Of a stretch of 20,888 nt of DNA, positions 7,495 to 20,803 are shown one piece after another (position 1 is the first letter of the stretch; each line of letters opens with the position of its first letter). Below the pieces are notes generated by a model that saw nothing but the letters and a program-made list of their open reading frames with translations, was not told the DNA's origin and did no database searches. Both the position numbers and the translations under genes were made by a program. Origin of the DNA: Firmicutes bacterium UBA4049 (GTDB taxonomy: Bacteria; Bacillota; Desulfotomaculia; Desulfotomaculales; Nap2-2B); assembly GCA_002382755.1 (NCBI GenBank), contig DFZT01000051.1, forward strand, positions 1 through 20,888. Reading direction: 5' to 3'.

Positions 7495-7755
7495 TTAGCA
7501 GCAGATTTCACCCTTACCTAATTTCCCTTTAATTATGGCTTGAGCGCAGCCCGCCCCGGCAGCTACGGAAATGGCGGAGAAAGGGCAGTTAATCGCGCAG
7601 GCGCCGCATTCCATGCAAGAATCCCTGTCCTGAATGGCAGCCTTTTTGTTGATAATTTTAAATACCTGGTGCGGGCAAACCTCGGCGCAGATCCCGCATC
7701 CGGTGCATTTCTCTTCGTCAAGATCCAGTGTAACCACATTTTTAAGATACTTCAA
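7495..7755 (-). CDS. hgcB: HgcB, 4Fe-4S ferredoxin of mercury methylation
   Basis: An 86-residue protein with two CX2CX2CX3C clusters (C17, C20, C23, C27 and C47, C50, C53, C57), the conserved lone Cys of HgcB (C70, in AAGAGCAQ) and the terminal Cys pair (C85-C86). HgcB is known to reduce the corrinoid of HgcA and its C-terminal cysteines are implicated in passing Hg(II). The TTG at 7755 is the likely start: AGAGGTG lies 6 nt upstream and the product then begins MKYLKNVVTLDLDEEKC as expected for the family. An upstream ATG at 7779 would overlap hgcA and add eight residues. It begins 13 nt after the hgcA stop, so translation is probably coupled. No clear terminator follows. Confidence 0.93.
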   Translation of the reverse strand: MKYLKNVVTLDLDEEKCTGCGICAEVCPHQVFKIINKKAAIQDRDSCMECGACAINCPFSAISVAAGAGCAQAIIKGKLGKGEICC

Positions 7756-7768
7756 AGAAGACACCTCT

Positions 7769-8860
7769 TTACAGAACAAACTGATTTAAAAAAAGCAGGA
7801 CAACCCCCAGCCCAGCTGAAATTATCGCTGCAGGGAGCGCAACTTTTAATTCTCGCTTAACACCTGATAAGGAAGTAAATGTGCTTGAGCCGGTAAAATT
7901 TACTGCCAGATAGGACGACAGCGCCGGTAAAATAAGAAGGTAAACCAAGGCCTTAGTCCAGCCGGACGGCACAGCCGGGAAGGAGTATAAAATAACGGCA
8001 GTAGACCAGAGCAGGCCAAGCAGCCACCCTTTCCAGGCAAAAGAACGGCCCGGTATCCAGGGCAGCAGGGCAGGCGTCAATACGCAGCCTGCAACAACCG
8101 CCCCTAGGTAAGGCAGTGTTGCCAAATAAGAAACGGACCAGATTTTAAGAAGGTTTAAAATGAATATGACCAGGTAAGCGGCAATGACTATTTTGATAAC
8201 CCTGACCAATTCTATGGGTATAAGTACAAGCCTGTCTGCAAAACCAAAGTTAACCCTGCGCATTTGTGGAGAAGCTTTCATGCCTGCGCCAAGAAATTTA
8301 GGAAGATCGCAGGCTCTTACCGGCCCATAGATAACCCTGAAACCGGATATTTTTAACAATCTGTGGGCAGCCACCCCTACAGCGCTTAACTGCGGCAAAA
8401 CCAGCGTCCGGTGTGAAACAACCCAGGAAAGGTTGGTCATGGCAATCACCCTGGCTATCTCCGTTGCGTTGAAGGTTCCCTTTCCGGCGGAACACCAGAC
8501 GTTGATTCCCCTCGTGTTGATAACTAGCACCCAGGCATTGACTCCTGACAACTCCTTTCTCAAACGGTCAAAAGTCATTTTATAATTGGCTGTTACCAGT
8601 ACCGGCGAATCTTCGCCGGGTTCCCCAATCCCATATAATCCGGGAGCAACTTTATATTCCATCCGGTTTATCCCCCAGCGCACTTTCCAGGAACCCATAA
8701 TGTCCTTTGCAGAAAGTTTTGTTGAGATGATCGGAATTTTTCCCGCCAGAGTAGTTTTATATCCGGTGATCCACCCGGCATTGGTTGGCAGGGGAGGAAC
8801 CTCCTCCTGCAGATCAGGGCCTCAACAAGTTTCACGCAAAGTATCTTCCTCAACTGCCAA
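7769..8860 (-). CDS. hgcA: HgcA, corrinoid-dependent mercury methyltransferase, with in-frame TGA (possible selenocysteine) at codon 13
   Basis: HgcA transfers a methyl group from a corrinoid to Hg(II). Seen here: the cap-helix motif NVWCSAGK with the cobalt-ligating Cys at residue 123 (codon 8494-8492), the flanking VRWGINRM and YGPVRACDLP blocks, and five C-terminal membrane segments. The first ATG in the open frame (8698) would remove conserved sequence: upstream codons read PTNAGWITGY...IPIISTKLSAKD, matching the N-terminal HgcA region, back to a TGA at 8824-8822. Before the TGA the frame stays open (MAVEEDTLRETC) to a TTG at 8860 with GGAGG 9 nt upstream; an ATG at 8869 abuts that GGAGG. 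A SECIS-like hairpin lies just after the TGA. If the TGA is read as Sec, the protein has 363 residues. Alternatives: nonsense mutation, sequencing error, or a non-ATG start after the TGA. Family identity is certain; the N-terminus is not. Confidence 0.93.
8791..8813 (-). promoter_or_regulatory. SECIS-like hairpin downstream of the hgcA TGA
   Basis: Counting from the first base after the TGA, bases 12-16 (GCAGG) pair with 30-34 (CCTGC), base 17 (A) is bulged, 18-21 (GGAG) pair with 26-29 (CTCC), and 22-25 (GTTC) form the loop. That is nine Watson-Crick pairs, one bulged 5' base, a four-pair upper stem and a G-first tetraloop, 21 nt after the stop codon. The E. coli fdhF SECIS has the same layout (bulged 5' base, four-pair upper stem, loop GGUC). 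The bulged base is A here rather than U, a difference from fdhF. Bacterial SECIS elements vary widely, so this is suggestive, not proof. Confidence 0.5.
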
Positions 8861-8869
8861 ACTGCCCAT

Positions 8870-8876
8870 CCTCCTT
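8870..8876 (-). promoter_or_regulatory. hgcA ribosome binding site upstream of the TGA
   Basis: AAGGAGG on the minus strand. It sits 9 nt from TTG 8860 and directly against ATG 8869, both in the hgcA frame. It supports translation starting before the TGA at 8824-8822 rather than after it. Confidence 0.7.
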
Positions 8877-8952
8877 TTATGGTGCATTTTAACCTTTTAA
8901 GCAGCCCGCTGCCCGGTTTCATACCTCAAACTTAAATTTTTAATGGTACAAA

Positions 8953-9234
8953 CTATAATTGAAACTGGTCGTTTAAGGCCGAGAGATATTTTTTCAATGT
9001 TTCTTCCTTAAAATAATAGTAGTTCCACCTGCCCCTGGTTTCTTCCCGGATAAGATCAGCTTCCTTTAATTCCTTGATGTGGTAAGAGACCCTTGATTGA
9101 AGCAATCCAGTATCGTCAACCAGGTGGCAGACACACAGCCACTTATCTTCACAGCATTTTTTGCCGGCGATTCGCCTGAGAATTTCCAGGCGCAAGGGAT
9201 CAGACAAAGCTTTGGCAATTTTTAAAATGTCCAT
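8953..9234 (-). CDS. arsR: ArsR/SmtB-family metalloregulator
   Basis: A 93-residue winged-helix repressor: ALSDPLRLEILRRIAG (helices 1-2), the recognition region GLLQSRVSYHIKELKEADLI, and a wing EETRGRWNYYYF. Metal-site cysteines are C27, C28, C34 and C36; the LCVCHLV block corresponds to the ELCVCDL As(III)/Sb(III)-sensing site of ArsR. The start at ATG 9234 fits the family N-terminus and has GGTG 5 nt upstream; the open frame extends to 9339 but across the promoter. It lies 92 bp upstream of hgcA on the same strand with no convincing terminator between, so it likely controls itself and hgcAB through the palindrome in its promoter. ArsR-like genes next to hgcAB are known in other methylators. 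Confidence 0.9.
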   Translation of the reverse strand: MDILKIAKALSDPLRLEILRRIAGKKCCEDKWLCVCHLVDDTGLLQSRVSYHIKELKEADLIREETRGRWNYYYFKEETLKKYLSALNDQFQL

Positions 9235-9254
9235 TATTTCACCAACCACTTTAG

Positions 9255-15890: not shown

Positions 15891-18017
15891 TCAGGCTGGA
15901 ACAGATCTTTTTCGGCGTTGCAGTGTCCGGCTGGCATTCAATACAGCCAGCAATGTCACCCCCACATCAGCAAAAACAGCTTCCCAGATACTAGCCAGAC
16001 CGATGGCGCCAAGCAAAATAAAGAAGGCTTTAACTGTCAATGCCATGTAGATATTTTGCCGAACAATTCGTCGTGTTCTTCTGGCGATTACCACCGCCCC
16101 TGCCAACTTGGAAGGAGCATCCTCCATCAGAACCACATCTGCGGCTTCAATTACTTCATCACTGCCCAATCCGCCCATTGCCACTCCGATGTCAGCCCTG
16201 GCAATAACGGGCGCATCATTGATGCCGTCACCGACAAATACCAGTTTTTGTTTTTCCCGATGCTTTATCTCCTTTTCCAATTCTTCAACCATCTCAACCT
16301 TATCTTCAGGCAGTAATTCCGCAAAATATGCATCAATTCCTATTTCCTGACTGACTTTTTCTGTCACTGTTTTATCATCACCGGAAAGCATTACAGTTTT
16401 CCTGATCCCTAGCTGCTTTAAACGACTGATTGCATCTTTTGCATCAGGTTTTAATTCGTCAGAAATAACTATATACCCGGCATAAACCCCATCAATAGCC
16501 ACATAAACAATGGTTCCTGCAACATCACAATCCTCATGGGCTATATTTTCCTTGTGCATCAGCCGGTCATTTCCCGCCAGAACCCTGTGCCCATTTACAC
16601 AGGCGCTGATTCCGTAGGCGGCAATTTCATGGAAATCCTTAACCTGGTCATCTGTTATTTCTTTCCCGGTCTTCTCCTTATACGCAGCAAAGATTGATTG
16701 AGCAATGGGGTGATTGCTGTATATTTCCGCTCCGGCCGCTGCCGACAGGATTTCTTCCGGGGTAATATGATTTTTGGATACGATCTGGGTCACTCGAAAA
16801 ACCCCTTTGGTCAAGGTGCCAGTCTTATCAAAAACGACCGTATCCAATTCCGCCAGGGCATCTATATAACTAGCTCCTTTAACCAGGATTCCGTTTTTCG
16901 AGGCGGCTCCAATTCCGCCAAAATAGCCCAACGGGATAGAAACCATCAGCGCACAAGGACAGGAAATAACCAATAGTACCAGCGCCCGGTAAATCCATTC
17001 ACTGAATTCCGCTCCCGGGACCAACAACGGCGGAATAACCGCAATCAAGACGCCTGCCCCGACAACGATAGGGGTGTATAAGTTTGCAAATTTGGTTATA
17101 AACTGTTCAGTGGGAGCTTTTCTCTCACTGGCTTTTTCGACCAATTCCAAGATCCTGGCTACCGACGAATCTTTGAACGGTTTGGAGACCATGACCGTAA
17201 GAAGTCCCTGACCATTGATCATTCCGGATAAGATATTTTCGCCAATTTCTACCTTGCGCGGAACAGATTCTCCGGTTAAGACTGATGTATCTACGAATGA
17301 TGTTCCATCAATAATCTCGCCATCCAAGGGAACTTTTTCACCAGGTTTAATTATAATTATCTGACCTATCTCGATTTCTTCAGGTCTTACTTGCCGTATT
17401 CCCCCATTTTCTTTAAGATTGGCATATTCCGGTTGAATATTGAGCAAAGCGGAGATAGATCGCCGTGAGCGGTTGACCGCCCGGTCCTGCAAGTATTCTC
17501 CAACCGCATAAAAAAGCATCACACCCACTGCCTCCGGCAATTGGTGGATCGCTATAGCTCCACCGGTAGCAATAGTCATCAAGAAATTTTCATCGAATAA
17601 CTCTCCGCCCGCCACTTTTCTAAAAGCGGCCAGGATAACCGGCCAACCAACCAGGAGATAGGCCGGAATTAAAACAGCATACTCAGCCCATGAGAACGGC
17701 GTATTATGCAGTGATTGGTTAAATATTATTCCAACGGCAAATAGTAAACCTGCTCCGATAATTATCCAAATACTATAATGTTCTTCCGCTTCCTCCGCTG
17801 ATGAAAAAGACTGTGACCCTTCAGCTATTTGCAGTTTCACTTCCGGTTCTACCCGTTTAATGATGGTACGGGCTTCTTCGGCCAATACTTCCGGCAGTTC
17901 GACGCTCAATGTATTAAAATTGATAGTTATATTCTCCAAACCATTTACTTTACGAAGTTCCCGCTCCAGTTTCGCGGCGCAGTTCGGGCAGTCTAGTCCT
18001 ACCAAAGAATAACGCAT
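15891..18017 (-). CDS. P1B-type heavy-metal ATPase, Zn/Cd/Pb exporter (ZntA/CadA-like)
   Basis: A 708-residue membrane pump. The N-terminal metal-binding domain has GLDCPNCAAKLE (C10, C13). Then come the A-domain motif TGES (248-251), the membrane metal site SCPC (C353, C355) in helix 6, the phosphorylation motif DKTGTLT (D397), the SNHPIAQSI HP motif, GDGINDAPV, and a C-terminal helix ADVGVTLLAVLNA whose Asp is a Zn/Cd ligand in ZntA. CPC plus this Asp points to the Zn/Cd/Pb subgroup rather than Cu. The ATG at 18017 has GGAACGG a few bases upstream, supplied by the end of a tetranucleotide repeat tract. No adjacent regulator is intact. The ubiD promoter follows downstream, so it is probably monocistronic. 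Confidence 0.93.
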   Translation of the reverse strand: MRYSLVGLDCPNCAAKLERELRKVNGLENITINFNTLSVELPEVLAEEARTIIKRVEPEVKLQIAEGSQSFSSAEEAEEHYSIWIIIGAGLLFAVGIIFNQSLHNTPFSWAEYAVLIPAYLLVGWPVILAAFRKVAGGELFDENFLMTIATGGAIAIHQLPEAVGVMLFYAVGEYLQDRAVNRSRRSISALLNIQPEYANLKENGGIRQVRPEEIEIGQIIIIKPGEKVPLDGEIIDGTSFVDTSVLTGESVPRKVEIGENILSGMINGQGLLTVMVSKPFKDSSVARILELVEKASERKAPTEQFITKFANLYTPIVVGAGVLIAVIPPLLVPGAEFSEWIYRALVLLVISCPCALMVSIPLGYFGGIGAASKNGILVKGASYIDALAELDTVVFDKTGTLTKGVFRVTQIVSKNHITPEEILSAAAGAEIYSNHPIAQSIFAAYKEKTGKEITDDQVKDFHEIAAYGISACVNGHRVLAGNDRLMHKENIAHEDCDVAGTIVYVAIDGVYAGYIVISDELKPDAKDAISRLKQLGIRKTVMLSGDDKTVTEKVSQEIGIDAYFAELLPEDKVEMVEELEKEIKHREKQKLVFVGDGINDAPVIARADIGVAMGGLGSDEVIEAADVVLMEDAPSKLAGAVVIARRTRRIVRQNIYMALTVKAFFILLGAIGLASIWEAVFADVGVTLLAVLNASRTLQRRKRSVPA

Positions 18018-19036: not shown

Positions 19037-19069
19037 AGCAGTAAATAGTTGCAGAAAGGGGGCTGGAAT

Positions 19070-20803
19070 TTGTATCTGAAGAAATCCAGACAAAAAAATG
19101 GCAGGGTACATCTTTCTATCGCGACAGGTTATTATGACAAGAAAACCGGAAAAACCAAAACCGTCAATGTAAAAACCCTGGGGTATCTCGATGTCCTTGA
19201 AAAACAATATTCGGACCCGATTTCATATTTTTCGGAGGAAGTGCGCAAAATGAACGAACTGAGATCCTCTGAAAAGACCCCTGTAATTTTTAATGTCCGC
19301 CTAAATGAAAAGCTCGTCTCCGGCATGGATACCCGTAAGAATTTTGGCTATGCCTGTTTAAGTAAGATTTACCATGAACTAGGAATTCATACTTTCCTTA
19401 TTAACAGACAGCGTCATTCGAAAGAGGGATATAATGCCAACGCTATTATGCAGCTCCTTGTGTTTTCCCGTCTGCTTTTTCCTTCATCCAAAAAGAAAAC
19501 TTTTGAAAACCGCAGCATGTTTTTTGAAAATGCAGATTTCTCTTTAGATGACGTGTACCGTTGCCTCTCTTTTTTGAACAAACGCAAGAACGAACTTCTT
19601 TTATGGATGCATAAACGTATTCAGGATCAATATAACCGCGATACTTCTTTGGTTTATTATGATGTGACCAATTATTACTTTGAAATTGATGAGCAGGATG
19701 ATCTGCGCAGAAAAGGTGTTTCAAAGGAGCACAGGCACGATCCGATTGTTCAGATTGGACTGTTCATGGATAACAACGGCATCCCCATTACATATGGTCT
19801 TTATCCCGGCAACATTCTTGACAAGCAGACCCTGATCCCAGTGCTCGGAAAAATCCAACGGGATTTCTCTCTTGGAAGGATCGTGGTGGTGGCTGATAAA
19901 GGCATAACAACAGGAGATAACATTTACTATACTCTATCCGCAAGAAACGGTTATATATTGAGCTACTCCATTCGAGGCGCAGATGCTGCATTTAAAGCAT
20001 ATGTTCTGGATGAAGACGGTTATATCAAGATAAATGATGAATTTAAGATAAAATCCAGACTCTATCCAAGAGAGGTCGCCATTACTGCTAAAGGCGGTGG
20101 TAAGAAGAAGGTGACCGCGGACGAAAAGCAGTTGGTTTTCTATAGCAAAAAATATGCGGAAAAAGCCAGGGCTGAACGTGCCGGAGCTTTGCAAAAGGCA
20201 AAAGACCTGATTAAGAATCCACATAAATATAACCTTGCTACTTCTCATGGTGCGGCCAAATATGTAAAAAATATCTCTTTTGACGCCAAAACAGGTGAAA
20301 TAATGAAAGATGCAAAGAGACACCTTCTTTTTGATGAAGAAAAGTTACGGCAGGAAGAGGAGTTGGACGGGTACTATGCCATTGTCACTAGTGAATATCG
20401 AATGCCTGATGAACAGATTATAGAAATCTACCGCGGTCTTTGGAGGATAGAAGAATCGTTTAAGATAACGAAAAGTGATTTTGAGAGCAGGCCGGTATAT
20501 CTTTCTGCACAGGAACATATTCAGGCGCATTTCCTTACCTGTTTTGTGTCTCTTGTGATCGCCAGACTGCTTGAATACAGGATAAAAAGGAAGTATTCAG
20601 TAATGACGATACTGGAAGGCCTTGGCAAGGCTTCCTGCAGCCATATGCAGGGAAACTATTACCTGTTTAATTATTACGATAATCTTCTCGCTGATCTCGG
20701 CGCTGAACTCGGGATTGATTTTGCCAGGAAATACATGACTCTTGGAGAAATAAAAAAAATTTTGGCGGAAGTAAAAAAAGATACGAGATACTCGAACTCT
20801 TAG
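19070..20803 (+). CDS. IS1634/IS4-superfamily transposase
   Basis: A 577-residue DDE transposase. The first Asp is in LVYYDVTNYYFEID, the second in VVVADKGITTGDN, and the Glu in IYRGLWRIEESFKITKSDFE, the YREK-like signature of the IS4 superfamily; the long insertion between the second Asp and the Glu (about 150 residues, Lys-rich) fits IS1634. The N-terminus MYLKKSRQKNGRVHLSIATG is also typical of that family. TTG at 19070 is the likely start with GGGGG 7-8 nt upstream; an in-frame TTG at 19049 precedes the RBS. The gene appears intact. Its AT-richer composition differs from the flanking core genes. Confidence 0.93.
   Translation: MYLKKSRQKNGRVHLSIATGYYDKKTGKTKTVNVKTLGYLDVLEKQYSDPISYFSEEVRKMNELRSSEKTPVIFNVRLNEKLVSGMDTRKNFGYACLSKIYHELGIHTFLINRQRHSKEGYNANAIMQLLVFSRLLFPSSKKKTFENRSMFFENADFSLDDVYRCLSFLNKRKNELLLWMHKRIQDQYNRDTSLVYYDVTNYYFEIDEQDDLRRKGVSKEHRHDPIVQIGLFMDNNGIPITYGLYPGNILDKQTLIPVLGKIQRDFSLGRIVVVADKGITTGDNIYYTLSARNGYILSYSIRGADAAFKAYVLDEDGYIKINDEFKIKSRLYPREVAITAKGGGKKKVTADEKQLVFYSKKYAEKARAERAGALQKAKDLIKNPHKYNLATSHGAAKYVKNISFDAKTGEIMKDAKRHLLFDEEKLRQEEELDGYYAIVTSEYRMPDEQIIEIYRGLWRIEESFKITKSDFESRPVYLSAQEHIQAHFLTCFVSLVIARLLEYRIKRKYSVMTILEGLGKASCSHMQGNYYLFNYYDNLLADLGAELGIDFARKYMTLGEIKKILAEVKKDTRYSNS

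Follow-up and report, generated by a model that had tools for sequence, protein, structure and literature searches.

Organization of the hgcA locus

The window, that is, the whole stretch of 20,888 nucleotides that was analysed, belongs to a draft assembly of 101 contigs. On its minus strand, an ArsR/SmtB-type regulator gene, hgcA and hgcB follow one another, and the features of this locus are given below in the direction of transcription.

8953 to 9237, minus strand: ArsR/SmtB-type regulator, upstream of hgcA (NF033788, 70.1 bits, cut-off 55)
8870 to 8874, minus strand: Shine-Dalgarno-like GGAGG, 9 nt from the TTG (sequence)
8858 to 8860, minus strand: TTG, likely start of the full-length hgcA (residue conservation with two relatives)
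7769 to 8860, minus strand: hgcA, predicted mercury-methylation corrinoid protein of 363 residues with Sec13 (NF040863, 449.1 bits)
8822 to 8824, minus strand: in-frame TGA, predicted selenocysteine codon (residue 13, following Cys in a Cys-Sec pair)
8788 to 8810, minus strand: SECIS-like hairpin of 5 bp, one bulged A, 4 bp and the loop GUUC at 8800-8797 (minimum free energy fold)
7495 to 7761, minus strand: hgcB, ferredoxin with a C-terminal Cys-Cys, start codon unsure (NF040864, 118.7 bits, cut-off 99)

The preliminary description of this DNA had followed the hgcA frame through a TGA at 8824-8822, with TGT (Cys) directly before it, back to a TTG at 8860-8858 preceded at 9 nt by GGAGG (8874-8870), and all of these elements are present in the sequence. 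Read from 8860, the frame is TTG GCA GTT GAG GAA GAT ACT TTG CGT GAA ACT TGT TGA GGC CCT, and it is closed by TAA at 7771-7769. The HgcA profile score was obtained with C entered for U, and the curated cut-off of that model is 275 bits. The cap helix of HgcA is known by the motif N(V/I)WCAAGK with its conserved Cys; the motif is present in the translation as INVWCSAGKGTF, and N120, W122, C123, A125, G126 and K127 were invariant in 28 aligned rows. The assignment as HgcA also agrees with the adjoining hgcB, whose product reads Cys rather than Sec in the GAGC motif.

Three other frames of the window were recorded. The exonuclease/helicase frame at 27-1727, which we take to be DinG-like, matched RNase_T and the start of a helicase domain only and is 566 residues long, ending close to the edge of the window; it may be cut or frameshifted. 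A P-type ATPase with an HMA domain lies at 15891-18017 on the same strand as hgcAB, and a transposase-like frame, presumably IS1634-like, occupies 19049-20803 near the window end.

Conservation around the in-frame TGA

A search of the window's own family at E 0.001 gave matches in 8 of 11 genomes. Near-full-length HgcA was found in two only, the window genome and a genome of the same genus, and the remaining matches were partial (29-35%, about 120 residues). The same-genus hgcA is 87% identical and has a single TGA, at the same codon as in the window. The same Cys-TGA was also present in a second hgcAB locus of the window's own assembly (G000:C19), whose hgcA has two 'nn' gaps. This second locus (L042:5400-7208) is arranged arsR-hgcA-hgcB, and its downstream sequence differs from that of the window. 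Its HgcB resembles the same-genus HgcB more than the window HgcB, and the locus may represent either another copy or a stray contig. In both the same-genus and the second locus, an ArsR/SmtB-type gene was seen by eye upstream of hgcA.

The codons of the window, the same-genus locus and the second locus were compared without gaps. Over the 12 codons from TTG to TGT, 11 residues of the window were kept in the same-genus locus and all 12 in the second locus; for the 8 codons 5' of the TTG, the figures were one and none. The changed codons from TTG to TGT were 3 synonymous and 1 nonsynonymous between the window and the same-genus locus, 2 and 0 between the window and the second locus, and 4 and 1 between the same-genus and the second locus. 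In the 8 upstream codons, 7, 8 and 4 nonsynonymous changes were counted for the same three pairs. Since TTG to TGT is conserved and the codons upstream changed mostly nonsynonymously, the TTG is the most likely start of the coding region in the window. The same-genus and the second locus have 4 of the 8 pre-TTG codons in common and a GTG three codons upstream, so that the start in these two relatives may be slightly earlier. After the TGA, 7 synonymous and 3 nonsynonymous changes were found among 35 codons between the window and the same-genus locus. Coding conservation, by which a selenoprotein gene is judged, was thus observed on both sides of the TGA in these nearest loci.

The preliminary description had proposed looking for Cys or TGA at this codon in homologues, and both were found: the TGA is kept in the two nearest loci, and Cys pairs are frequent in more distant proteins. 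An alignment of 121 rows was made from the query (C for U) and the best 120 of 7908 hits, two of which (P0002 and P0006) are 100% identical pieces. The two columns of the pair read CC in 54 of the 121 rows, query included, while 37 rows had one Cys, 28 no residue and 2 other letters; the tail aligns loosely, and individual rows are unsure. Cys was the commonest letter at the column aligned with the TGA among these best 120 hits and the query.

A wider set, composed of the best 80 of 584 relatives and other loci, provided 122 sources with an HgcA core, of which 114 were distinct. Going upstream from the core, the first in-frame stop was TGA in 61 of the 114 distinct loci, and 8 had no stop within reach. 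The stop directly followed a Cys codon in 20 of 61 loci with TGA vs 5 of 45 with TAA or TAG (one-sided Fisher p 0.008); this p-value and the one given below for folding are optimistic because the loci are related. L091 was rejected as a Cys-TGA locus: with an ATG one codon further on and Cys pairs beyond that ATG, its TGA was regarded as an ordinary stop. A Cys-TGA at the position of the pair was kept in 19 of the 114 loci of this set: the window, the same-genus locus, the second own locus, 13 deltaproteobacterial/Desulfobacterota records and three genomes of the same phylum.

For 111 of the 114 loci a tree was computed, with L017 taken out by hand and L068 and L157 by the length limit. The rows, which again include the best 80 of 584 relatives, were classed as 18 Sec, 64 Cys-Cys, 12 single Cys and 17 with none of these. 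The Sec label required at least 7 changes on the tree (7 to 7 over bootstraps), compared with a mean of 17.0 when labels were shuffled. The window and the same-genus locus grouped, with support 98/94, with a protein of the Cys-Cys type that belongs to a different family of the phylum; it is the nearest protein outside the genus among the 111 rows. On this tree, then, Cys and Sec were exchanged more than once. Over the 45 codons that precede the core, the 64 Cys-Cys tails had a mean of 4.0 Cys (at least 2 by definition of the class) and the 18 Sec tails 1.4. As a separate observation, the hgcA tail of L158 reads Cys-Asp-TGA. In the tree, this locus is the partner of the Sec-type L155, with a very long branch; its TGA may represent either an ordinary stop or another variant with Sec.

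The hairpin, the selenocysteine machinery and the reading of the TGA

The hairpin was recovered in the geometry in which it had been drawn: it is the minimum free energy fold of the 45 nt from the TGA, at -14.9 kcal/mol, with the GUUC loop starting at +22. The resemblance to the E. coli fdhF element that had been seen in its bulged base did not hold. The fdhF-type SECIS has a bulged U in its 5' arm, whereas the window has a bulged A, and this bulge is absent from the two nearest loci. An 8-pair helix without a bulge is possible there around a GUUC at +22, with stems that differ from that of the window, and in the minimum free energy fold of the same-genus locus the register is shifted by one. 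All three nearest loci have GGT at +21; in the E. coli element, GGU in the loop is a SelB contact. No SECIS family was matched in an Rfam search to E 5. At this loose threshold, Rfam returned four weak matches of unrelated kinds over 8600-9000, far under the gathering scores, and these were set aside.

The preliminary description had also raised the concern that the stem pairs by chance. For the window hairpin alone this concern stood, since the 45 nt including the TGA had a folding z of -0.72 and were equalled or bettered in 40 of 200 shuffles. The 45 nt after the TGA gave z -2.32 in the window, and +0.40 and -0.32 in the two nearest loci. Because the single-sequence score is not significant, the question of chance is decided by the comparison across loci, and there the concern was not sustained. 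An ungapped helix of at least 5 pairs (G-U allowed) with a loop of 3-6 nt starting at +15 to +30 past the TGA was possible in 19 of 19 Cys-TGA loci vs 22 of 59 Cys-Cys controls. This test accepts any register; the longest ungapped helix of the window is not its minimum free energy fold, and L155 was counted at +30. The mean folding z of the 45 nt after the TGA was -1.27 in the 19 Cys-TGA loci (range -3.5 to +1.4), compared with 0.00 for the 45 nt after CC in the 59 Cys-Cys loci (one-sided Mann-Whitney p 1.3e-4). Moreover, GGT at +18 to +24 was found in 12 of the 19 vs 5 of the 59.

The genome was searched for the genes of selenocysteine synthesis and insertion, which the preliminary description had named as a check, and all of them scored over their cut-offs: selA (605.1 bits), selB (384.9 bits), tRNA-Sec (71.5 bits, anticodon tca) and selD (384.6 bits). 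The selD gene has one internal in-frame TGA, which was present in all four genomes of the genus searched. selA was also found in 14 of 15 further genomes with Sec-type HgcA (L117 left out), and it exceeded the cut-off in 25 of 31 other HgcA genomes. We therefore rejected selA as a discriminator of Sec-type HgcA: being similarly common in both groups, it permits the selenoprotein but does not single it out.

Judged from these sequence comparisons, it is very probable that the hgcA of the window encodes a selenoprotein, with translation starting at the TTG and the UGA at 8824-8822 read as Sec by means of the hairpin. The machinery, the TGA in the two nearest loci, the Cys pairs of homologues and a helix at the right distance all bear out this reading, which the preliminary description had put forward.

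The only other reading to which we give some weight, and it is an unlikely one, is that the TGA is a real stop, that TTG to TGA is a conserved 12-codon leader, and that HgcA starts at the ATG at 8698-8696 or at a non-standard start past the TGA. This ATG has AGGA 4 nt before it, and 14 relatives with 75-89% identity, among the matches listed, are called from after the TGA position, although such calls are also expected if the TGA cuts these proteins. However, the ATG is the 42nd codon past the TGA (residue 55), and a protein begun there would lack D53, which is invariant in the 28-sequence alignment, as well as the nearly invariant G40 and L49. No ATG, GTG or TTG was found in frame between the TGA and this ATG. 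A leader would be in frame with hgcA by chance only; its final Cys would coincide with the Cys-Cys of many homologues, and a hairpin would happen to follow it at the distance of a SECIS. The same Cys-TGA was also seen in 16 more distant loci.

That the TGA is a sequencing error, or that hgcA has decayed, is extremely unlikely. The assembly is a draft and the second locus has gaps; nevertheless, the second locus and a separate assembly from the same genus have the same TGA, synonymous changes exceed nonsynonymous ones around it, and the remainder of the frame is open. Equally slight is the chance that the UGA is read as another amino acid such as Trp or Gly, without selenium: read-through alone would open the frame too, but UGA ends 6 of the 18 genes listed in the window, tRNA-Sec, SelA, SelB and SelD are encoded in the genome, and Cys is the commonest residue at the aligned column.

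Proposed role and comparison with known systems

If the TGA is read as selenocysteine, translation would start at the TTG at 8860, and the hairpin, which begins 12 nt past the UGA, would direct SelB and tRNA-Sec to insert Sec at 8824-8822. The ribosome would then translate the corrinoid and membrane domains and stop at the TAA. In the predicted product, the tail that precedes the corrinoid domain has a Cys-Sec pair in the place of the Cys-Cys of many homologues. This pair may plausibly bind Hg(II) or keep HgcAB reduced, together with the Cys-Cys tail of HgcB. In the model put forward in PMC7305189, Hg(II) is taken up by the C-terminal Cys pair of HgcB and handed on to the corrinoid. The HgcA pair could, by analogy with HgcB, take part in such an Hg(II) relay or keep the system reduced. 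A bolder proposal, which we advance tentatively and regard as rather less probable than not, is that the HgcA tail is a mercury-handling arm, that its Cys cluster was independently cut to a single Cys-Sec pair in several lineages including the genus of the window, so that the pair's second Cys would identify the reactive ligand by which Hg(II) is handed over between the tail of HgcB and the corrinoid.

Selenols have a high affinity for Hg(II), and methylmercury ranks among the major pollutants. The predicted Cys-Sec pair therefore points to a testable residue in the methylation cycle. Current annotation hides this pair, because the proteins of the clade are called past the TGA and the NCBIfam model for HgcA starts at residue 42.

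The preliminary description knew of no selenocysteine HgcA, and this statement is out of date. Among its selenoproteins, a table in PMC13188914 (a 2026 review) has HgcA, NF040863, with the motif 'CU' (refs 61 and 63), and HgcB, NF040864, with the motif GVGU (ref 63). Ref 63 of the review is Haft & Gwadz 2023, and for the HgcA row a 2008 survey is cited as well. Since the form is tabulated there, the predicted Sec HgcA of the window is not new as a form; the window adds its lineage to the selenium-containing form of this mercury-methylation protein.

Compared with the tabulated Sec HgcB, the HgcB of the window keeps Cys at the corresponding place. GVGU, i.e., TGA in the GVGC motif, was found in four loci of our set (L150, L151, L152 and L153). 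Two of these have Sec HgcA and two have Cys-Cys HgcA, which gave no firm link between Sec HgcA and Sec HgcB in these four. The overall HgcB TGA tally was not used because it also counts TGA resembling an ordinary stop after C-terminal cysteines.

With the Sec HgcA 'CU' of the review table, the window shares the family, the Cys-Sec motif and the in-frame TGA. The Cys-type HgcA of Pseudodesulfovibrio mercurii ND132, as described in PMC7305189 and PMC11588087, has in common with it the corrinoid domain with the NVWC motif and hgcB downstream, and the membrane domain of HgcA is given there as five-helix. The two differ in the tail, which in the window is predicted to have one Cys and one Sec.
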